Positions 17,253 to 23,160 of a stretch of DNA of 28,801 bases are shown piece by piece. A program made the position numbers and the translations under genes. The notes below the pieces were generated by a model. The model worked only from the letters and a program-made list of their open reading frames with translations. It ran no database searches and had not been told where the DNA came from. Source of the stretch: a virus; the IMG/VR virus record IMGVR_UViG_3300046697_000085, positions 1 through 28,801 of that record; one strand, 5' to 3'. Within the stretch, counting starts at the first letter, position 1; every line of letters begins with the position of its first letter.

Positions 17253-17326
17253 TGGAGCGGACAGTCGGATTTCAACCGACATGACAAACTTGGAAGGATT
17301 GCATCCTAGCATTGGATGATGCCCGC
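17253..17326 (-). tRNA. tRNA-Gly(TCC), altered elbow
   Basis: Seven-pair acceptor stem, encoded TCCA end. The anticodon loop CTTCCAA reads GGA. D-loop AATGCTA and T-loop TTGAAAT give C19-G56 instead of G19-C56. One mismatch in the anticodon stem. Confidence 0.85.
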
Positions 17327-17331
17327 AAACT

Positions 17332-17405
17332 TGGTAGGCGACCACGGATTCGCGCCGTGATTATTCCTTAATCGGAGGAATTTCCTGCTATTGGAAGAGT
17401 CGCCC
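17332..17405 (-). tRNA. tRNA-Ile(GAT)-like with aberrant anticodon loop
   Basis: Complete cloverleaf with CCA. The anticodon loop CCGATTA has C33 and T37 instead of T33 and a purine. D-loop AATAGCA lacks GG, and T-loop CGCGAAT lacks T54-T55, though G19-C56 can form. Functional status is less sure than for its neighbours. Confidence 0.65.
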
Positions 17406-17410
17406 ATAAA

Positions 17411-17484
17411 TGGTGCCCGGTGAGGGAGTCAAACCCCCGTCGCTATCGTGTAAAGGTAGCAGTCTATCGTTAACCTAACCAGGC
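17411..17484 (-). tRNA. tRNA-Val(TAC), altered elbow
   Basis: Acceptor GCCTGGT/ACCGGGC, CCA encoded, anticodon loop TTTACAC (codon GTA). D-loop AACGATA with T-loop TTTGACT predicts A19-U56. Confidence 0.82.
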
Positions 17485-17571
17485 AAAACTTTAAGCTTCA
17501 AGATCACGGCTCTCAAGAAGCGTCCTCGGGATTACGACCGTCTGCTGGGCATCAAAGTACCCGAGGTAACA
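17485..17571 (-). other. Gap A in tRNA array: structured, not a tRNA
   Basis: This 87-base gap has no CCA or cloverleaf. A CCTCGGG/CCCGAGG stem (seven pairs, 29-base interior) and a GCTTC/GAAGC stem can form on the minus strand. On the plus strand one frame reads without stop through the gap (FKITALKKRPRDYDRLLGIK), protein-like but without start. It may be a remnant of a gene or of a tRNA. Confidence 0.35.
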
Positions 17572-17646
17572 TGGGGCGCGTAGCCGGAATCGAGCCGACA
17601 TCCTGACCTTCGGAGGGTCGAGTTCTGTCCTTTGAACTATACGCGC
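17572..17646 (-). tRNA. tRNA-Arg(CCG)
   Basis: Acceptor GCGCGTA/TACGCGC, CCCA end. Loop CTCCGAA (codon CGG). D-loop AAAGGACA and T-loop CTCGATT keep G19-C56, though T54 is C. Confidence 0.88.
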
Positions 17647-17651
17647 AAACT

Positions 17652-17752
17652 TTGTGCGAGCCGGATTTCTACCGGAAAATCTCTACTGACAGGCTGAAGA
17701 GGTCTTTCGACCTAAGTCAATATCCCGTTCGCCCGGATTTCAGATTCTCGCA
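17652..17752 (-). ncRNA. tRNA-like RNA of unresolved type (gap B)
   Basis: About 100 bases closed by TGCGAG/CTCGCA, without CCA. It contains a TCCGG-TAGAAAT-CCGG arm that looks like a T-arm with a non-standard loop. A TTGAC/GTCAG stem encloses 25 bases including a GAAA-capped hairpin. Read in normal order it would be a tRNA with an insert in the anticodon loop. Read as permuted, ATCCG-GGCGAAC-GGGAT would be the T-arm and the CCGGTAGA segment the D-loop. Neither fits cleanly. Confidence 0.4.
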
Positions 17753-17755
17753 ACT

Positions 17756-17830
17756 TGGGAGTCCCGTCCGGACACGATCCGGAATCTTTGCTTTAGGGGA
17801 GCATTGCTCTGTCCTTTGAGCTACGGGACC
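17756..17830 (-). tRNA. tRNA-Arg(CCT), C33
   Basis: Acceptor GGTCCCG/CGGGACT with CCCA. The anticodon loop CCCCTAA reads AGG but has C33. D-loop AAAGGACA, T-loop ATCGTGT: G19-C56 is kept, T54 lost. Confidence 0.83.
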
Positions 17831-17838
17831 AAAACTTA

Positions 17839-17913
17839 TGGAGAGCGCACGGAGAATTCAACTCCGATTCTTGGTTTAGAGGACCAGTGCCTTCTGCATT
17901 AGACGATGCGCTC
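17839..17913 (-). tRNA. tRNA-Arg(TCT), C33, altered elbow
   Basis: Acceptor GAGCGCA/TGCGCTC with TCCA. Loop CCTCTAA (codon AGA) has C33. D-loop AATGCAGA with T-loop TTGAATT predicts C19-G56. Confidence 0.83.
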
Positions 17914-17914
17914 T

Positions 17915-17989
17915 TGGTGGGGCGTCGGGGTAACCATCCCCGTTCTTCCGGTTAAAGGCCGGTTGCTTCAGCATTAAAGCTTACACCCC
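17915..17989 (-). tRNA. tRNA-Lys(TTT), C33, altered elbow
   Basis: Acceptor GGGGTGT/ACGCCCC with ACCA. Loop CCTTTAA (codon AAA) has C33. The D-loop contains ATGCTG and the T-loop is ATGGTTA, predicting C19-G56. A canonical Lys(CTT) follows in the array. Confidence 0.8.
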
Positions 17990-17994
17990 TAAAC

Positions 17995-18071
17995 TGGTGG
18001 GTCGCCAGGAACTCGAATCCTGCTCTGTCGGGTAAGAGCCGACTGCTTCAAACCATCAAAGCTTGCAACCC
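17995..18071 (-). tRNA. tRNA-Lys(CTT)
   Basis: Fully canonical: acceptor GGGTTGC/GCGACCC, loop CTCTTAC (codon AAG), D-loop with GG, T-loop TTCGAGT, ACCA encoded. Confidence 0.93.
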
Positions 18072-18072
18072 G

Positions 18073-18167
18073 TGGAACCGGAAGAGGGGCCTGAGCCCTC
18101 GCGCACCAGCAATCTACTGGCAACTGCCGGGGTTATAAATCCCAACGCCTCACCCGAGGATTCCGGC
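18073..18167 (-). tRNA. Class II-like tRNA, anticodon uncertain (TAT?)
   Basis: Acceptor GCCGGAA/TTCCGGT with TCCA, T-arm GAGGG-CTCAGGC-CCCTC. The anticodon arm is best read as TGGGA-TTTATAA-CCCCG, giving TAT (Ile, codon ATA), with a mismatch closing the loop. The 27-base variable region holds a stem GCCAG/CTGGT. Leu, Ser and Tyr normally have such arms, so anticodon and class disagree. The D-arm is reduced to CCTC-GGGT-GAGG. Confidence 0.55.
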
Positions 18168-18173
18168 AAAACT

Positions 18174-18246
18174 TGGTGCCGCGTGAGGGACTTTAACCCT
18201 ACGCCAAACGCTTTATGAGGGCGTTGTCCAAACTCTGGTGCGCGGC
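18174..18246 (-). tRNA. tRNA-Met(CAT), elongator-like, reduced D-arm
   Basis: Acceptor GCCGCGC/ACGCGGC (one mismatch) with ACCA, loop CTCATAA. Only 73 bases: the D-arm is short (CCA-GAGTT-TGG). T-loop TTAAAGT has A56, and the GT in the D region would allow U19-A56. Could also be an Ile(CAU) tRNA after modification. Confidence 0.7.
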
Positions 18247-18251
18247 GAAAC

Positions 18252-18321
18252 TGGCAGGGAATCGGGGAGTCTAACCCCGCTAAAAGGTTTTGGAGACCGA
18301 TGTGATCTCGGATCATTCCCT
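18252..18321 (-). tRNA. tRNA-Trp(CCA), short D region
   Basis: Acceptor AGGGAAT/ATTCCCT with GCCA, loop CTCCAAA (codon TGG), T-arm CGGGG-TTAGACT-CCCCG with A56. At 70 bases it lacks a normal D-arm; GATC-CGA-GATC is the only hairpin possible there. Confidence 0.7.
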
Positions 18322-18327
18322 GTAAAA

Positions 18328-18402
18328 TGGTAGCCCCGTGCGGACTCAAACCGCAATAACTAGTTTCGAAGACTAGTGCCCTGTTCTTTGGACGACGGGG
18401 CC
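18328..18402 (-). tRNA. tRNA-Arg(TCG), altered elbow
   Basis: Acceptor GGCCCCG/CGGGGCT with ACCA, loop CTTCGAA (codon CGA). D-loop AAAGAACA and T-loop TTTGAGT predict A19-U56. Compare Arg(CCG), whose D-loop AAAGGACA differs at exactly that base. Confidence 0.87.
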
Positions 18403-18408
18403 GTGAAA

Positions 18409-18484
18409 TGGTGTGCCCGGTCGGACTTCAACCGACGACCTCTTCCTTCGCAGGGAAGCGTTCTATGCGCTGAACTACGGGTAC
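18409..18484 (-). tRNA. tRNA-Arg(GCG), altered elbow, overlapped by endonuclease ORF
   Basis: Loop CTGCGAA (codon CGC), CCA encoded, one acceptor mismatch. D-loop AGCGCATA with T-loop TTGAAGT predicts C19-G56. The upstream endonuclease reading frame continues through its first 57 bases. Confidence 0.85.
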
Positions 18485-19294
18485 AAAAACTTTCAGAAGT
18501 TCCACAAAATGTTGCACTTGTTCATTAGTTTTGATGAATCTGTCTTTTCCGAGAGGCCACCGATAACGAACGACTCGTATTCCAACCCCGGTAAGTAGTC
18601 GATCTCTTTCTTGGTCCGAATCTTTTCTGTCGTCGTGTTGGCGGCCATCTACTTCCAAATCCAACAACAAAGAAGGAAAGTAGAAATCTAAGAAGTAGTT
18701 GCCCTTCTTGTCTGAGCCAAGTTCCTTCTTTCTGACCTTGAATTCTTGAACGTACTCTTGGTCCGTTTGGCTCCCCAGACGCTCTCTCCAGAACCTCTCG
18801 GCGAAAGACTCTTTACCTTTCGGACGAGTTTGCCATCCGGGGTGCTTCCCTACCGAGGAAGCAAGAATTTTCTTTACGAACTCTGGGTCCTGCCATTTCA
18901 CGATACCAGAACAAGCAATTGAACAATACCTTTGCTTTCGCTTGGGTCTCTCAATAACGGACCCGCAGTTTTCGCAAGGTCGAGGAAGATTATTGGTCTT
19001 GGATCGTAAAGACAGACTGAGTTTGTCTTTCGACTCCTCGCTTCTCTTCTCCCCAGGAACCCCTATCTTACTGTTTCCGTAGCACCGAGAATCACAAAAT
19101 TTTTGGTCGTATGAACAAAGTACCCCGCACCACTCACAAGGACTATCGGGAATCTTCTTTCTTCGTTCGCTAGTACAAGCCGCACTACAATAGAACTCGG
19201 TCTGTCCTGCTTTTGTTGCAAACACATAATGCTTCAGTTGCTTGAGAAATTTGCTCTTACAAACGCAGCACTCAAGTTCAATCTTCTTCGGCAT
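18428..19294 (-). CDS. VSR/EDxHD-like homing endonuclease with zinc fingers, 288 aa
   Basis: The N-terminal 135 residues hold repeated Cys pairs (CCVCKSKF, FYCSAAC, CEWCG, FCDSRC, CENCG, YCSIAC), a string of zinc knuckles for DNA binding. The C-terminal catalytic part, LDFYFPSLLLDLEVDGRQHD then DQERDRLLTGVGIRVVRYRW, is the VSR/DUF559-like PD-(D/E)XK fold seen in EDxHD homing enzymes. It lies between tRNA-Pro(TGG) and tRNA-Arg(GCG). No stop occurs before the tRNA: the last 18 codons and the TGA are tRNA sequence. ATG with AGGAAGACACA. Confidence 0.8.
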   Translation of the reverse strand: MPKKIELECCVCKSKFLKQLKHYVFATKAGQTEFYCSAACTSERRKKIPDSPCEWCGVLCSYDQKFCDSRCYGNSKIGVPGEKRSEESKDKLSLSLRSKTNNLPRPCENCGSVIERPKRKQRYCSIACSGIVKWQDPEFVKKILASSVGKHPGWQTRPKGKESFAERFWRERLGSQTDQEYVQEFKVRKKELGSDKKGNYFLDFYFPSLLLDLEVDGRQHDDRKDSDQERDRLLTGVGIRVVRYRWPLGKDRFIKTNEQVQHFVELLKVFVPVVQRIERFPAKEEVVG

Positions 19295-19309
19295 TGTGTC
19301 TTCCTAACA

Positions 19310-19386
19310 TGGTCGGGAGGGTGAGAATCGAACTCACTTGATAGCTCGCTTCCAGAGCGAGAGGCTAACCTTTTGCCCACCCCCCG
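19310..19386 (-). tRNA. tRNA-Pro(TGG), C33
   Basis: Acceptor CGGGGGG/CCTCCCG with ACCA. Loop TCTGGAA (codon CCA) has C33. D-loop with GG and T-loop TTCGATT are normal. Confidence 0.88.
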
Positions 19387-19393
19387 ATAAATT

Positions 19394-19470
19394 TGGTCGG
19401 GACCCGGCGAGTCGAACGCCGCTCGTCCTGTATCCGAAACAGGTGCCTGAAACCGCTAGGCTAGACCCCG
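19394..19470 (-). tRNA. tRNA-Pro(CGG)
   Basis: Acceptor CGGGGTC/GGTCCCG with ACCA, loop TTCGGAT (codon CCG), canonical D-loop (GG) and T-loop TTCGACT. Confidence 0.92.
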
Positions 19471-19471
19471 A

Positions 19472-19547
19472 TGGTGCGGATTCCCAGAATCGAACTGGAC
19501 TGAACGGCTTTTCAAACCGCCGCAAAGACCACTCTTGCTCAATCCGC
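19472..19547 (-). tRNA. tRNA-Phe(GAA)
   Basis: Acceptor GCGGATT/AATCCGC with ACCA, loop TTGAAAA (codon TTC/TTT), D-loop with GG, T-loop TTCGATT. A T-run from the preceding segment abuts its 5' end. Confidence 0.92.
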
Positions 19548-19629
19548 AAAAAGTCGGGGTACTCTCACCCCCTGTCAAACCACTCGCCGAACGTTACGAC
19601 GCTGCCGCAGGTTTCGCGGTTCTCAGCTT
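19548..19629 (-). other. Gap D in tRNA array: structured, ends like a terminator
   Basis: No cloverleaf or CCA. Minus-strand stems: CCGC-GAAACCT-GCGG, AGCGT-CGTA-ACGTT, and a GGGGT/ACCCC stem followed by GACTTTTT, which resembles an intrinsic terminator touching tRNA-Phe. A GGCGAGTGGTTTGA segment looks like a class II D-loop, so a decayed tRNA-Ser or -Leu is possible. Confidence 0.35.
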
Positions 19630-19705
19630 TGGTGGAGACGGAGGGATTGCAACCCTCAAAACTACGGTGCAGACGTAGTATGATCGCGTGTTTCATCACG
19701 CCCCC
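19630..19705 (-). tRNA. tRNA-Ala(TGC), C33, altered elbow
   Basis: Acceptor GGGGGCG/CGTCTCC with ACCA. Loop TCTGCAC (codon GCA) has C33. T-loop TTGCAAT has G56, and the long D-loop AAACACGCGAT offers C19. Confidence 0.82.
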
Positions 19706-19706
19706 A

Positions 19707-19800
19707 CATTTCAAACTTACGCCGAGGTCCTATCCTTTAGATGATGGTGCGGAACTCACCGCATATTCCAGCGGGAGTCGAACCCGCGTTTCTCGGCTGC
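19707..19800 (-). ncRNA. Circularly permuted tRNA-like gene
   Basis: On the minus strand a consensus T-arm (GCGGG-TTCGACT-CCCGC) comes first and a consensus D-arm segment (TCATCTAAAGGATAGGAC) comes after it. The outer ends pair as an anticodon stem (TCGGC with GCCGA). The region between pairs as an acceptor (CCGCACCA with TGG..TGCGG, an AATA bulge), closed by a short loop. Rejoined, the order acceptor, D-arm, anticodon stem, five-base variable loop and T-arm is normal. The flanks GTAAG and AAGCA share AAG and would give loop GTAAGCA. No CCA is encoded. Confidence 0.55.
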
Positions 19801-19801
19801 T

Positions 19802-19877
19802 TGGGGCGGGGTAGGAGGTTCGAACTCCTGTTACTGGGGTCACAGTCCAGCGCCTAAGCCACTCGGCCAACCTCGCC
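19802..19877 (-). tRNA. tRNA-His(GTG)
   Basis: The 5' end has the extra G(-1) opposite C73 that marks tRNA-His. Loop CTGTGAC (codon CAC/CAT), T-loop TTCGAAC, D-loop with GG, CCA encoded. Confidence 0.92.
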
Positions 19878-19893
19878 ATAAACTTTCCGAGCT

Positions 19894-19992
19894 TTAGGTC
19901 AACCGGCTGGCCAGCAAAAGGGCTATGCCCACGATCAACTTTTCACTGCATCCTATTTCTAGGAGGTACTCGGTGTAGGACTTGCTGTCCAT
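19894..19992 (-). CDS. Possible small membrane protein, 32 aa, start in repeat
   Basis: The ATG within repeat copy 11 opens MDSKSYTEYLLEIGCSEKLI followed by VGIALLLASRLT, with a C-terminal hydrophobic segment. The frame extends upstream without stop (ATPAWFYQTKWRDFSTGL...) into tRNA-Thr(TGT), so a longer product with a non-ATG start cannot be excluded. The ribosome binding site is weak. Confidence 0.4.
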   Translation of the reverse strand: MDSKSYTEYLLEIGCSEKLIVGIALLLASRLT

Positions 19993-20001
19993 TACCTGGA
20001 C
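19987..20001 (-). repeat. 15-mer hairpin repeat, copy 11
   Basis: GTCCATTACCTGGAC, preceded by CTTGCT and followed by GAA. The flanks are shared with copy 14. Confidence 0.88.
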
Positions 20002-20084
20002 GAATCGGAAACAGGGTTTACTCTGAAGCCCCGTTGAAAAGTCGCGCCACTTCGTTTGGTAGAACCAGGCAGGTGTCGCCTGTA

Positions 20085-20159
20085 TGGAGCGCCCGGACAG
20101 ATTCAAACTGCCTTCTCCCGGGTACAGGCCGGGCGAATCTTCTGGTATTCTTCAGGCGC
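20085..20159 (-). tRNA. tRNA-Thr(TGT), C33, altered elbow
   Basis: Acceptor GCGCCTG/CGGGCGC with TCCA. Loop CCTGTAC (codon ACA) has C33. D-loop ACCAGAAG with T-loop TTTGAAT predicts A19-U56. First gene after promoter P2. Confidence 0.85.
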
Positions 20160-20176
20160 AAATCTCAACTAAAGAC

Positions 20177-20206
20177 ATTGTACCACAACCGTCTTCAGCT
20201 TGTCAA
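20177..20206 (-). promoter_or_regulatory. Promoter P2 (sigma70) inside the tRNA array
   Basis: Minus strand TTGACA (20201-20206), 18 bp, TGG-TACAAT (20177-20182). The endonuclease stop codon TGA lies inside the -35 hexamer. Confidence 0.88.
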
Positions 20207-20964
20207 CTAAAATCTTTTGGAGCCGGAAGGGAGGATTTAACTCCCGCTTTTCCCGTACCGGGGGAAGGTTCTGACAACTGAACTATTCCGGCTTTCTTGC
20301 GTCGAACTCCGCCAACATCTCGTCCTCGCCCTCTGTTTAACCCCATATATGTGGAAGTTAAAGAATGGCAATTTGGGCAGAGGATAGTCAAATTCTCTGG
20401 TCTACAGTTTCTGAAGTCTCCGTCGATGTGCTCAACCTGGATCGGAATGTGTCCGCTGGTTGGATTAACTTCACACCACCCACAGCGAGAACATTTCTTT
20501 CCATAAGTCCTGTAAAGGTAAACCCGTACTTGTTGACACAAAGCCCCGGCGGGTGTCAATCCCGATTCTTCCCCGAGGAGCCAAGCCTCTATGTACTTTT
20601 CTTCCTCGTACAAACGATGACAGACTTTGCTGCAAAAAAGTCGATTATCAGTTTCTCTTCCGCACCTTTTGCAGACTCTTAGAGGGGACCGACGCTTACC
20701 AGTAAGATTAAAAATTGCAGCACACCGTTGGGAACAAAACTTACTTTTAGTATCATCCCCACAATTAAGACAAGGACGAATATCCGTTTCTAGAGAGTTG
20801 GACAAACATCTTCGGGAGCAGTAGCAGAAACCTTCTCCCCTCTTGGCACTCTTCATTGCGTGGTGCTTGAGGCGCATAAAATCAACGTCACAATAATCAC
20901 AGTAAAGATGGACGGGTTCTCGACTTTTCGCTAGATCGAAATCTTCCTGAGAAACCAATCTCAT
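20203..20964 (-). CDS. HNH homing endonuclease with zinc knuckles, 253 aa
   Basis: N-terminal Cys-pair repeats (YCDYCDVDF, FCYCSRRC, CLNCGDD, FCSQRC, CKRCGRE, FCSKVC) lead into an HNH core: KCSRCGWC, then IQVEHIDGDFRNCRPENLTILCPNCHSL, giving His-Asn-His plus the zinc site. It lies between tRNA-Thr(CGT) and tRNA-Thr(GGT). The frame runs through the whole of Thr(GGT): about 25 codons are tRNA sequence. It stops in the -35 box of P2. ATG with TTAGGAGTAAGC. Likely a mobile gene that homes into tRNA sequence. Confidence 0.85.
   Translation of the reverse strand: MRLVSQEDFDLAKSREPVHLYCDYCDVDFMRLKHHAMKSAKRGEGFCYCSRRCLSNSLETDIRPCLNCGDDTKSKFCSQRCAAIFNLTGKRRSPLRVCKRCGRETDNRLFCSKVCHRLYEEEKYIEAWLLGEESGLTPAGALCQQVRVYLYRTYGKKCSRCGWCEVNPTSGHIPIQVEHIDGDFRNCRPENLTILCPNCHSLTSTYMGLNRGRGRDVGGVRRKKAGIVQLSEPSPGTGKAGVKSSLPAPKDFS
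20218..20292 (-). tRNA. tRNA-Thr(GGT), C33, altered elbow, inside endonuclease ORF
   Basis: Acceptor GCCGGAA/TTCCGGC with TCCA. Loop CCGGTAC (codon ACC) has C33. D-loop AGTTGTCA with T-loop TTAAATC predicts U19-A56. Wholly contained in the HNH reading frame. Confidence 0.87.
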
Positions 20965-20978
20965 GCTTACTCCTAACT

Positions 20979-21052
20979 TGGAGCCCGGTCGGGGAATTCA
21001 ACCCCGGTCTTCGCGGTACGAAGGCGAAAGTCTAGCACTGACCTAACCAGGC
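20979..21052 (-). tRNA. tRNA-Thr(CGT), altered elbow
   Basis: Acceptor GCCTGGT/ACCGGGC with TCCA, loop TTCGTAC (codon ACG). D-loop AGTGCTA with T-loop TTGAATT predicts C19-G56. Confidence 0.85.
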
Positions 21053-21060
21053 TTGCGGTT

Positions 21061-21099
21061 CATATATGGGTCCTAAAGTCGGTTAACGACCCATATATG
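21061..21099. repeat. Perfect 12-bp inverted repeat
   Basis: CATATATGGGTC (21061-21072) and GACCCATATATG (21088-21099) around a 15-base loop. Each arm also contains the self-complementary CATATATG. There is no T-run, so it is not a simple terminator. It lies ten bases from repeat copy 12. Confidence 0.85.
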
Positions 21100-21108
21100 T
21101 AACATGTT

Positions 21109-21123
21109 GTCCATTACCTGGAC
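21109..21123 (-). repeat. 15-mer hairpin repeat, copy 12
   Basis: GTCCATTACCTGGAC beside the 12-bp inverted repeat; TGTCC...GGACG flanks. Confidence 0.88.
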
Positions 21124-21131
21124 GAAACATT

Positions 21132-21216
21132 GCCGCTTGAGGGCCGGATGCTTCCCCGGCTTTTACAACCCCCGATGTAGGCCGGGGGCAACCTCGGAGC
21201 GTACGTCTCCTGCGGC
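21132..21216 (-). ncRNA. Three-arm structured RNA in tRNA array (gap E)
   Basis: 85 bases closed by GCCGC/GCGGC. On the minus strand three hairpins follow: GGAG-ACGTACG-CTCC, CCCCCG-GCCTACAT-CGGGGG and GCCGG-GGAAGCAT-CCGGC, the last two inside GAGG/CCTC. It has the size and outline of a cloverleaf but eight-base loops, no T-loop consensus and no CCA. Identity unknown. Confidence 0.45.
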
Positions 21217-21220
21217 AAAA

Positions 21221-21295
21221 TGGAGCGAAGGACCAGACTCGAACTGGCGTCTACGGACTGGCAATCCGAGGTACTGGCCGCTGTACGACCTTCGC
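21221..21295 (-). tRNA. tRNA-Gly(GCC)
   Basis: Acceptor GCGAAGG/CCTTCGC with TCCA, loop TTGCCAG (codon GGC), D-loop with GG, T-loop TTCGAGT. Confidence 0.93.
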
Positions 21296-21299
21296 AATG

Positions 21300-21374
21300 T
21301 GGCACCCGAGGAGCGAGTTGAACGCTGCGTCTGGGGCTTCAAAGACCCCGGTCCTACCGTTGAACGACTCGGGC
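21300..21374 (-). tRNA. tRNA-Gln(TTG)
   Basis: Acceptor GCCCGAG/CTCGGGT with GCCA, loop CTTTGAA (codon CAA), D-loop AACGGTA, T-loop TTCAACT. Confidence 0.93.
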
Positions 21375-21379
21375 AAAAC

Positions 21380-21456
21380 TGGCTGGACCTACAGGTCTCG
21401 AACCTGTCTTAGTCTTCGTTCAGAGCGAAGTGCCATACCTGCTAGGCGAAGGTCCA
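21380..21456 (-). tRNA. tRNA-Gln(CTG)
   Basis: Acceptor TGGACCT/AGGTCCA with GCCA, loop CTCTGAA (codon CAG), D-loop with GG, T-loop TTCGAGA. Confidence 0.93.
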
Positions 21457-21462
21457 TTAAAA

Positions 21463-21593
21463 TTTGGCGGTCCTCAATAAAACCCAGCCTCAAAGCGCGT
21501 AAGTCCCGCTACTCTCTTTGAGGTCTTGCTGCTAGGTTTTACCCGTTGGTGTTTAGCCACAGTGTTTAGAGTCGCAGCCCGTTACGACTATTT
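21463..21593 (-). other. Gap F in tRNA array: long hairpin region
   Basis: 131 bases without a tRNA. On the minus strand CCTCAAAG pairs with CTTTGAGG, and outside it TAAAACCTAG with CTGGGTTTTA, a long interrupted hairpin at about 21477-21542. GTCGTAACGGGCTGCGAC at the other end is a separate hairpin. A lone CGCCA at 21463-21467 may be the 3' end of a lost tRNA. Confidence 0.4.
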
Positions 21594-21668
21594 TGGCTCC
21601 ACAGGCGCGAGTCGAACGCGCATCTTACTCGTTAACAGCGAGGCATAATACCATTATACGACCGTGGA
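21594..21668 (-). tRNA. tRNA-Asn(GTT)
   Basis: Acceptor TCCACGG/CTGTGGA with GCCA, loop CTGTTAA (codon AAC/AAT), D-loop with GG, T-loop TTCGACT. Confidence 0.93.
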
Positions 21669-21674
21669 ACAACT

Positions 21675-21755
21675 TGGCGTGGGTGACCGGAATCGAACCG
21701 GCGACATCACCTGATTGAAAGTCAGGGCACATTCACCAACAATGTGAACACCCAC
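21675..21755 (-). tRNA. tRNA-Glu(TTC)
   Basis: Acceptor GTGGGTG/CACCCAC with GCCA, loop CTTTCAA (codon GAA), long D-loop with GG, T-loop TTCGATT. Confidence 0.92.
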
Positions 21756-21759
21756 AAAA

Positions 21760-21837
21760 TGGTAGGGTAGCTCGGGTTCGAACCGAGGCGTAACCACGGT
21801 GAGAACGTGGTGGCTTAACCAACTTGCCAACTACCCC
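21760..21837 (-). tRNA. tRNA-Glu(CTC)
   Basis: Acceptor GGGGTAG/CTACCCT with ACCA, loop TTCTCAC (codon GAG), D-loop with GG, T-loop TTCGAAC. Confidence 0.92.
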
Positions 21838-21842
21838 ATAAA

Positions 21843-21918
21843 TGGCGCGACGAAGGGGATTTGAACCCCTGTAAACTTGATCGACAATCAAGGACATTTG
21901 CCGCTATGCTACCGTCGC
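21843..21918 (-). tRNA. tRNA-Asp(GTC)
   Basis: Acceptor GCGACGG/TCGTCGC with GCCA, loop TTGTCGA (codon GAC/GAT), D-loop with GG, T-loop TTCAAAT. Confidence 0.93.
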
Positions 21919-21922
21919 AAAA

Positions 21923-21998
21923 TGGTTGCCAGGGGAGGACTTGAACCTCCGGTCTCCAACTTATGAGGATGGCGAGATGGCCGCTTCTCTACCCGGCG
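21923..21998 (-). tRNA. Initiator tRNA-fMet(CAT)
   Basis: The end pair is C1-A72 (CGCCGGG against CCTGGCA), the mismatch that marks bacterial initiator tRNA, and the D-stem has A11-T24. Loop CTCATAA, T-loop TTCAAGT, ACCA. The three G-C pairs of a typical initiator anticodon stem are not fully present (CCATC/GTTGG). First gene after P3. Confidence 0.85.
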
Positions 21999-22007
21999 TC
22001 AAACTTC

Positions 22008-22013
22008 ATTGTA
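22008..22013 (-). promoter_or_regulatory. Promoter P3 (extended -10)
   Basis: TGTGGTACAATG as in P1 and P2, but no TTGACA upstream. Repeat copy 13 (22019-22033) occupies the spacer between -10 and the expected -35, the position of an operator. Confidence 0.65.
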
Positions 22014-22018
22014 CCACA

Positions 22019-22033
22019 GTCCGGATAATGGAC
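22019..22033 (-). repeat. 15-mer hairpin repeat, copy 13 (inverted), in promoter spacer
   Basis: GTCCGGATAATGGAC on the plus strand, five bases upstream of the -10 box of P3. Confidence 0.9.
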
Positions 22034-22045
22034 TTGTGGAAAACT

Positions 22046-22074
22046 GCACAATAACATCGAAAATGTTACCGTGC
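22046..22074 (-). terminator. Probable intrinsic terminator in tRNA array
   Basis: Minus strand: GCAC...GTGC enclosing AACAT/ATGTT, then AGTTTTCC. It ends the tRNA unit transcribed from P4, immediately before P3. Confidence 0.55.
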
Positions 22075-22079
22075 GAAAC

Positions 22080-22163
22080 TGGTGCACGCAGCAAGAATCG
22101 AACTTGCTATCCCCGAAGAGGGCTCTTTTACAGAGAGCCTGGCTACCTTAGCGCGTTACGTGC
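22080..22163 (-). tRNA. tRNA-Tyr(GTA)
   Basis: Acceptor GCACGTA/TGCGTGC with ACCA, anticodon stem GCTCT/AGAGC, loop CTGTAAA (codon TAC/TAT), long variable arm, T-loop TTCGATT. Confidence 0.9.
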
Positions 22164-22164
22164 G

Positions 22165-22251
22165 TGGCGGAAAGCGAAGGTAACGATCCCTCATCCCTTG
22201 CGGGAGCCCCGGTTTTCAGGACCGGCTGTCTCACCATCGACGGCGCTTTCC
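22165..22251 (-). tRNA. tRNA-Ser(TGA), C33
   Basis: Acceptor GGAAAGC/GCTTTCC with GCCA. Loop CCTGAAA (codon TCA) has C33. Variable arm TCCC-GCAA-GGGA. T-loop ATCGTTA lacks T54, D-loop has GG. Confidence 0.87.
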
Positions 22252-22388
22252 AAAACTTAACTCCCCGACTTCTACGCGACACCTTGCTGAGCTTGTCAGG
22301 GCCAGCCGGGCTCGGGGAACCGGATCATATTCCAACCCTTTGACAAGGGAATAAGGAACAGCGGACGACCGGCGGCACACGTCAAACA
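22252..22388 (-). other. Gap G in tRNA array: two structured blocks
   Basis: 137 bases without cloverleaf. TCCCCGA/TCGGGGA closes a 57-base block (22261-22317) that contains CTGA-CAAGC-TCAG. A second block (about 22321-22380) holds CCCTT-GTCA-AAGGG inside ATTCC/GGAAT. No CCA. Identity unknown. Confidence 0.35.
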
Positions 22389-22476
22389 TGGCGGACGGGG
22401 TGAGATTTCAACTCACGACACCCGAAGGTGTACTGGTTTTCGGGACCAGCGCGATAAAGCACTCTGCCACCCGTCC
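22389..22476 (-). tRNA. tRNA-Ser(CGA), C33, altered elbow
   Basis: Acceptor GGACGGG/CCCGTCC with GCCA. Loop CCCGAAA (codon TCG) has C33. Variable arm ACACC-TTCG-GGTGT. D-loop with GTGC and T-loop TTGAAAT predict C19-G56. Confidence 0.87.
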
Positions 22477-22477
22477 G

Positions 22478-22563
22478 TGGAGGAAAGCAGTGAACACGAT
22501 CCACAGTCCCGAAGGACCCAACTGGTTTCCGGCCAGTGCCCAGCCCCGCCGGGTTTACTTTCC
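22478..22563 (-). tRNA. tRNA-Ser(GGA), C33
   Basis: Acceptor GGAAAGT/GCTTTCC with TCCA. Loop CCGGAAA (codon TCC) has C33. Variable arm GGTCC-TTCG-GGACT. T-loop ATCGTGT, the same as Arg(CCT). Confidence 0.86.
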
Positions 22564-22566
22564 ATT

Positions 22567-22591
22567 AAGGAAAAACTACCTACTTTTCCTT
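22567..22591. repeat. Inverted repeat AAGGAAAA/TTTTCCTT
   Basis: A perfect 8-bp inverted repeat with a nine-base loop between two Ser tRNAs; possible processing or termination hairpin. Confidence 0.6.
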
Positions 22592-22607
22592 GCACAAAAC
22601 TTGACAT

Positions 22608-22693
22608 TGGCGGATCGTGCTTGAGTCGAACAAGCTCAACCTTTCGGTTGTACAGTTTAGCAAACTGCTCCGTTACCGTCCCGGCCACGATCC
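22608..22693 (-). tRNA. tRNA-Ser(GCT)
   Basis: Acceptor GGATCGT/ACGATCC with GCCA, loop TTGCTAA (codon AGC/AGT), variable arm CAACC-GAAA-GGTTG, T-loop TTCGACT; canonical. Confidence 0.92.
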
Positions 22694-22822
22694 GTGAAAC
22701 TTACGTCCCTCTTGTTTCAGAGTTGAAGGAGTTGACAATCTCTGACCAACTTACCGACAGTTTGTCTTCGGCAGGGCTACTTTGCTTTATGGTCATCAGT
22801 GGGAGTTGACACCCACAACATT
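22694..22822 (-). other. Gap J in tRNA array: tRNA-like pieces
   Basis: 129 bases. A GTGGG-TGTCAACT-CCCAC arm resembles a T-arm with one extra loop base, a D-loop-like AGTTGGTCAGAG follows about 55 bases later, and TGACCA/TGGTCA can pair between them. The T-before-D order recalls the permuted locus at 19707-19800, but the other stems do not fit. GAGTTGACA occurs twice on the plus strand. Confidence 0.35.
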
Positions 22823-22905
22823 TGGTGCCGATGAGGGGGATCGAACCCCTACCCCGAAGGACTAGGTTTTGAATCTAGCGTGGCTTCCAATTACACCACA
22901 TCGGC
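22823..22905 (-). tRNA. tRNA-Leu(CAA)
   Basis: Acceptor GCCGATG/CATCGGC with ACCA, loop TTCAAAA (codon TTG), D-loop with GG, variable arm with TTCG, T-loop TTCGATC. Confidence 0.91.
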
Positions 22906-22911
22906 AAAACT

Positions 22912-22994
22912 TGGTGCAGGTAGAGGGAGTCGAACCCCCACCCCTAGAGACTGGTTTCTAAAACCAGCGCGGCTGCCAATTACGCCATACCTGC
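22912..22994 (-). tRNA. tRNA-Leu(TAG)
   Basis: Acceptor GCAGGTA/TACCTGC with ACCA, anticodon stem CTGGT/ACCAG, loop TTTAGAA (codon CTA), long variable arm, T-loop TTCGACT. Confidence 0.92.
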
Positions 22995-23006
22995 ACAACT
23001 TAAACT

Positions 23007-23082
23007 TGGAGGTCGAGATCGGAATCGAACCGACGATTAACAGTTTTGCAGACTGTCGCTTTACCGTCTTAGCTACTCGACC
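23007..23082 (-). tRNA. tRNA-Cys(GCA)
   Basis: Acceptor GGTCGAG/CTCGACC with TCCA, loop CTGCAAA (codon TGC/TGT), D-loop with GG, T-loop TTCGATT. Confidence 0.93.
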
Positions 23083-23083
23083 G

Positions 23084-23160
23084 TGGTGCGGGCGACCGGA
23101 TTCGAGCCGGTAGAACCGAGGGTTTAAGCCTCAGATGTCTTCCTGTTGCATCACGCCCGC
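23084..23160 (-). tRNA. tRNA with anticodon TAA (Leu codon TTA) but short variable loop
   Basis: Acceptor GCGGGCG/CGCCCGC with ACCA, anticodon stem TGAGG/CCTCG, loop CTTAAAC, D-stem ATG/CAT, T-arm ACCGG-CTCGAAT-CCGGT. The variable loop is about five bases, so this is a class I body with a Leu anticodon. Confidence 0.8.

Follow-up and report, generated by a model that had tools for sequence, protein, structure and literature searches.

Permuted tRNA-like units in the tRNA arrays of related phages, candidate stand-alone counterparts of the YrlA tRNA mimic

Permuted modules shaped like transfer RNA (tRNA) were reportedly described in Y RNAs, those of phages included, by Chen et al. in 2014. Such modules, phage ones among them, are documented in Y RNAs (PMC7765460). 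The Y RNA YrlA contains a tRNA-like domain resembling the D, T and acceptor arms; DusA and TruB modify this domain, which also binds PNPase (PMC8394870). In Salmonella, YrlA is spared by a tRNA-cleaving nuclease, and it has been proposed to be a competitive inhibitor of that enzyme (PMC7790460). In algae and archaea, the known permuted tRNA genes require a bulge-helix-bulge motif and a splicing endonuclease; no bacterial example is listed in a 2014 review (PMC3978253, PMC4033280). Here we analyze a permuted tRNA-like unit located in a tRNA array of the virus record IMGVR_UViG_3300046697_000085, whose whole 28.8-kb sequence (28,801 nucleotides; the window) encodes a portal protein of the SU10 type, a terminase and a major head protein. 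A first-pass annotation had proposed a circularly permuted tRNA gene at this site. We consider the unit, with a probability of roughly 0.6, to be a stand-alone YrlA-like tRNA-mimic RNA devoid of the Ro60-binding stem, which may act on a factor that handles tRNA, as its decoy or binding platform.

The unit lies in the 96-nt interval between tRNA-His and tRNA-Ala, which reads on the minus strand AGCA-GCCGAG-AAAC-GCGGG-TTCGACT-CCCGC-TGG-AATA-TGCGG-TGAGTT-CCGCA-CCA-TCATCTAAAGGATAGGAC-CTCGGC-GTAAGTTTGAAATGT. Its arms follow one another in the order closing stem, T-arm, closed hairpin, D-arm, closing stem, and the 3′ half is encoded upstream of the 5′ half, as in circularly permuted tRNA genes. The arms recognized in the first-pass annotation are all present: the T-arm (19787-19771) precedes the D-arm (19744-19727), the outer strands pair at six of six positions in the manner of an anticodon stem, and the middle pairs as an acceptor stem (3 + 5 bp) with an AATA bulge and a closing loop. 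Neither ARAGORN nor the Rfam model RF00005 finds an ordinary tRNA at the unit, and Rfam matches no permuted transfer-messenger RNA (tmRNA; RF04321) in the window. The unit is very probably a circularly permuted tRNA cloverleaf, with its opening in the anticodon loop and its acceptor end closed. A caveat is that the window RNA, folded alone, reaches its energy minimum (-31.9 kcal/mol) with the T-arm paired to the hairpin, compared with -26.2 kcal/mol for the cloverleaf. The best fold of the homologue in IMGVR_UViG_3300048772_000133 forms the closing stem and the T-arm, and the covariation described below settles the question in favor of the cloverleaf.

Relatives were gathered through the terminase and through the protein adjoining the array. 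Eighteen permuted units were found in nine arrays, the window included, with one to three units per array, arranged in tandem where there are several (Table 1). The permuted order thus recurs in related phages, where the first-pass annotation had suggested looking for it. All 18 units are located 3′ of tRNA-His, and most extend up to tRNA-Ala. In L081, no tRNA-His is called by ARAGORN and the units stand directly ahead of tRNA-Ala; in L084, an HNH gene separates the last unit from tRNA-Ala; and the L077 array, whose corresponding interval is interrupted by an HNH insertion, has no unit. The HNH genes of L077 and L084, both inside the His-Ala interval, have a common upstream stretch (GGATGCTAAACTC...). 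Contig 3300049729_000104 (L035) is a repeat of the sequence of IMGVR_UViG_3300048772_000133. An exact search of viral contigs for the T-arm/hairpin string of the window gave no match, BLAST against cultured phages found nothing close, its single match being 50 nt long and located over tRNA-His, and a scan of genome contigs revealed no relative. Distant terminase relatives were Tunturiibacter phage Tunturi_3, which has no tRNA array within the stretch read, and cyanophages.

A descriptor of the permuted cloverleaf matched 3 times per 1.07 Mb of shuffled sequence. The junctions between ordinary adjacent tRNAs of the same arrays, which also put a T-arm ahead of a D-arm, provided a sharper control: the "anticodon" strands are paired at five of five positions at only 2 of 175 such junctions, versus 18 of 18 units. 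The closing stem comprises 5 to 6 bp in every unit and is represented by 11 distinct sequences. Because the units were picked by pairing, covariation between orthologues is the stronger evidence. Compared with the window unit, the homologue in IMGVR_UViG_3300048772_000133 (G4_P1) has compensatory changes in the T-stem. One T-stem pair reads C-G in the window unit, G-C in G4_P1 and A-U in L081_B; among these three units another pair of this stem is G-C or A-U, and the acceptor base pair adjoining the T-arm is U-A or C-G. In this alignment 98.4% of the cells pair, a value that drops to 40-57%, with zero double changes, when the partners are slid by 1 to 3 columns. L047_C and L084_C likewise covary, in the T-stem and the hairpin. 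The window unit and G4_P1 are nearly identical, but this was not taken as a sign of selection, since the adjacent protein is also 96% identical between both phages. The T-loop motif TTCRA and the GG of the D-loop are each found in 15 of the 18 units. The tRNA elbow is conserved while the length of the acceptor varies: this arm is a closed hairpin of 4 to 8 bp, often bulged or extended, whose extremes are 4 bp with a tetraloop (G3_P2) and 7 to 8 bp with long extensions (L050_B and L084_A).

The Rfam YrlA model (RF02553) has the same arm order, and its arms align one by one with those of the window unit (19.1 bits, model positions 1-114) and of several others, the best score among the units being that of L047_B (27.8 bits). 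The first-pass annotation, in stating that no such gene was established in a phage, overlooked the phage Y RNAs, whose tRNA-like module has this very order. The Ro60-adjacent loci of Xanthomonas phage Olaya and Caulobacter phage CcrColossus score 26-50 bits, also below the gathering score of the model. One of the unit-bearing phages (G013, that of array L057) carries a Ro60/TROVE gene and three Y RNAs directly before its tRNA array. These Y RNAs have common Ro-arm strings (TTACTT...CGCTTGTTC), and the first one has a T-arm, a closed acceptor and a D-arm; G014, a relative of G013, has Ro60 and two such Y RNAs. In the 28.8-kb window fragment there is no Ro60/TROVE gene, and the window unit is separated from the mature tRNAs by only 4 and 15 nt. 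We think it rather probable that the units resemble the tRNA-like module of a Y RNA (YrlA) standing alone; lacking the Ro60-binding stem, they are not classed as YrlA. The Ro60/TROVE genes followed by two or three Y RNAs in these two phages are those of L088 (positions 904-2286 and 2290-2610) and L089.

As for a mechanism, the unit would be transcribed within a polycistronic tRNA transcript, and 3′ processing of tRNA-His together with 5′ processing of tRNA-Ala would release a short RNA capped by the 6-bp stem. The T-loop/D-loop elbow of this RNA may then be recognized by elbow-binding factors. As it would be neither charged nor used in decoding and would offer no anticodon loop to cut, the released RNA would act as a binding platform or as a competitive decoy, for which an anticodon nuclease, PNPase or a tRNA-modifying enzyme are candidate targets. 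Defences that cleave tRNA are described (PMC10264068, PMC11555353), and a phage with a large tRNA array facing them would profit from a decoy. We put this role forward tentatively.

Several observations weigh against our interpretation. No unit reaches the gathering score of RF02553 (69 bits), as they score 15-28 bits. Junctions of ordinary tRNAs score as high on that model (28.7 bits in L113), and the YrlA covariance score was dropped as a discriminator for this reason. The Ro60-binding stem is absent outside the module, and the Ro-arm strings of the G013 and G014 Y RNAs are found in no unit, nor in the window. G024, with 104,680 bases and three units, has no Ro60 hit. The choice of units by eye or by a pairing-based scan introduces an ascertainment bias, only partly offset by the orthologue covariation.

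Conservation and compensatory changes support the permuted tRNA shape called by the first-pass annotation, but not the designation "tRNA gene". Such a gene would mature by joining of the anticodon-loop ends into a circle, excision of the acceptor loop by RNase P and tRNase Z, and addition of CCA. L047_A and L047_B have clean 7-bp acceptor stems, the flanks of the window unit, once joined, could yield GTAAGCA, a loop of 7 nt whose position 33 is T, and one unit-bearing phage encodes an RNA ligase, all of which would fit. In contrast, CCA follows the 3′ acceptor strand in the tRNA position in 0 of the 18 units, versus 224 of 228 ordinary tRNAs of these arrays; an open 7-bp acceptor is lacking; the D-arm is wholly missing in L047_C and L084_C; and no missing isotype was identified that the units might supply. 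The bases 3′ of the closing stem differ between units (GTAA, GAGA, ATAA, AAAC, TGTA, TTGA), so that there is no single U33-anticodon register: T33 is inconsistent across the units, and rejoining does not give a complete tRNA with a 7-bp acceptor and a U33-anticodon loop. No bulge-helix-bulge motif is found at the unit termini, where the 4-nt leader after the CCA of tRNA-His is too short to form one and the flanks belong to tRNAs. Among the unit-bearing records searched, RtcB is absent and an RNA_ligase domain occurs only in G013. The AAG shared by the flanks GTAAG and AAGCA, which the first-pass annotation would expect of a unit derived from a tandem copy or a circle, is weak evidence for a circle: the CCA of tRNA-His ends with the opening A of AAGCA, leaving AGCA as the true spacer, and GTAAG runs into AAGTTTG, an inter-tRNA spacer common here. 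Derivation from one tRNA isotype was also considered and abandoned for want of a consistent best match. A permuted tRNA gene is thus very improbable, and equally so is that the units are the first bacterial-virus permuted tRNAs to mature to a working RNA, be it circular, ligated or two-piece, carried singly or in tandem in a tRNA array without CCA. A two-piece RNA akin to permuted tmRNA, whose hairpin would be opened by tRNA-processing enzymes and whose halves would stay paired without ligation, appears very improbable. The order of the halves is that of permuted tmRNA, and a related phage carries one such tmRNA in its tRNA array (RF04321, 94.4 bits; ARAGORN tmRNA*, tag peptide AVPFELPMAA). 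Unlike that tmRNA, however, the units have acceptor loops down to 4 nt and no encoded CCA, and their split anticodon could not decode.

Two decayed adjacent tRNAs, the 3′ half of one and the 5′ half of the next pairing by chance, were the alternative named by the first-pass annotation; they were looked for in related phages and not found. The covariance model does see such junctions as similar to the units, but the junction control and the conservation of the order in nine phages leave this explanation a negligible probability, and the related arrays refute it. We also judge it unlikely that the units are a passive structured spacer, or a relic of tandem tRNA duplication, kept only for correct folding of the tRNA precursor. 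The variable number of units (none in L077), their widely varying acceptor arms and the look of tandem-duplication products that the tandem units have are consistent with this idea, but the elbow bases of the T-loop and D-loop are mostly kept and the stems carry compensatory changes over a wide divergence.

Table 1. Features of the window, unit-bearing arrays and the permuted tmRNA of a related phage
Feature	Record or array	Position	Strand	Remarks
tRNA array holding the unit	window	17253..23160	minus	~30 tRNA genes (ARAGORN, Rfam)
Permuted tRNA-like unit, both closing-stem strands included	window	19721..19797	minus	1 unit in this array
Closing stem, 5′ strand GCCGAG (anticodon-stem 3′ strand position)	window	19792..19797	minus	6/6 pairs with 19721-19726
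T-arm GCGGG TTCGACT CCCGC	window	19771..19787	minus	compensatory changes C-G/G-C/A-U and G-C/A-U in orthologues
Closed "acceptor" arm TGG-AATA-TGCGG-TGAGTT-CCGCA-CCA, without CCA end	window	19745..19770	minus	U-A to C-G compensation beside T-arm in L081_B
D-arm TCATCTAAAGGATAGGAC, GG in loop	window	19727..19744	minus	GG present in 15/18 units
Closing stem, 3′ strand CTCGGC (anticodon-stem 5′ strand position)	window	19721..19726	minus	
Linker GTAAGTTTGAAATGT reaching tRNA-Ala	window	19706..19720	minus	common to two related arrays
tRNA-His(GTG), directly upstream	window	19802..19876	minus	4 nt between its CCA and the unit
tRNA-Ala(TGC), directly downstream	window	19630..19705	minus	
Promoter-like site TTGACA-18-TACAAT, upstream of Thr-His-unit-Ala stretch	window	20177..20206	minus	consensus scan only; 6 sites found vs 4.5 expected by chance
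Related array	IMGVR_UViG_3300048772_000133 (G4, L005)			2 units
Related array	3300028268_000006 (G3, L019)			3 units
Related array	3300050034_000172 (L050)			2 units
Related array	3300043788_000060 (L057; phage G013)			1 unit
Related array	3300049215_000074 (L047)			3 units
Related array	3300048778_000111 (L081)			2 units
Related array	3300031240_000013 (L083)			1 unit
Related array	3300037258_000147 (L084)			3 units
Permuted tmRNA of related phage	L035	3742-3928	minus	
Permuted tmRNA of related phage	L020	5832-6141	minus	

Other features were noted around the unit. A non-tRNA stretch between a Thr(TGT)-like tRNA and tRNA-His (19880-20060), with a counterpart in L005 (~900-1035), is possibly another structured RNA, and a GCTGAGAACCGCG-AAACCTGCGGCAGC-like hairpin found 3′ of tRNA-Ala (19580-19630) is 91% identical over 45 nt to L005 1738-1782. 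ARAGORN missed tRNA-like genes at 20080-20170, 22169-22251, 17842-17913 and 19475-19547, which comprise one Thr(TGT)-like gene recognized by eye, one match to the tRNA-Sec model below the cutoff and two above the cutoff in Rfam only. DUF559 and HNH nuclease genes sit among the window tRNAs (18428-19294 and 20203-20964). A T-arm/D-arm pattern scan was discarded, as it hit mostly stretches of unrelated phages resembling 23S ribosomal RNA (rRNA), and so was a likeness of the window D-arm to the 23S string CCATCATTTAAAG, a consequence of the query. In contigs of unrelated phages, a stretch resembling the GTPase-associated centre of 23S rRNA (e.g., GGATGTGGGCTTAGAAGTAACCATCATCTAAGGAGTG) lies beside tRNAs and is possibly an rRNA mimic; it was seen just downstream of a tRNA in L023, L025, L026, L027, L028, L031, L033 and L036.

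The tRNA arrays of phages are usually read as a supply for codon usage or as a replacement for tRNAs cut by host defences. If the units are stand-alone YrlA-like mimics, a conserved, uncharged tRNA mimic without anticodon in such an array would represent a different device, a decoy or platform against tRNA-handling proteins, and the tRNA-like module of Y RNAs could exist without its Ro60 arm. The permuted tRNA-shaped modules of Y RNAs were already known; units without the Ro stem, set in tandem within a tRNA array between tRNA-His and tRNA-Ala, were not found in the open-access literature searched. With the permuted tRNA genes of Cyanidioschyzon merolae, prasinophytes and Thermofilum pendens, the unit shares the 3′ half placed first, the junction in the anticodon loop and the intervening sequence in the acceptor arm. 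It differs from them by having no splicing motif, no usable anticodon loop and a variable, closed acceptor, and its carrier is a bacterial-type virus without known tRNA-splicing endonuclease. Like the units, the permuted two-piece tmRNA has permuted halves and, in a related phage, is found within the same tRNA array. The CCA, the long intervening segment and the tag reading frame of this tmRNA are all lacking in the units, most of which have D-arms. The tRNA-like module of YrlA has the same arm order as the units, a conserved elbow and no anticodon loop, and it also occurs in phages; unlike YrlA, the units sit inside a tRNA array between ordinary tRNAs, come in tandem copies, and are found in some carriers without Ro60.
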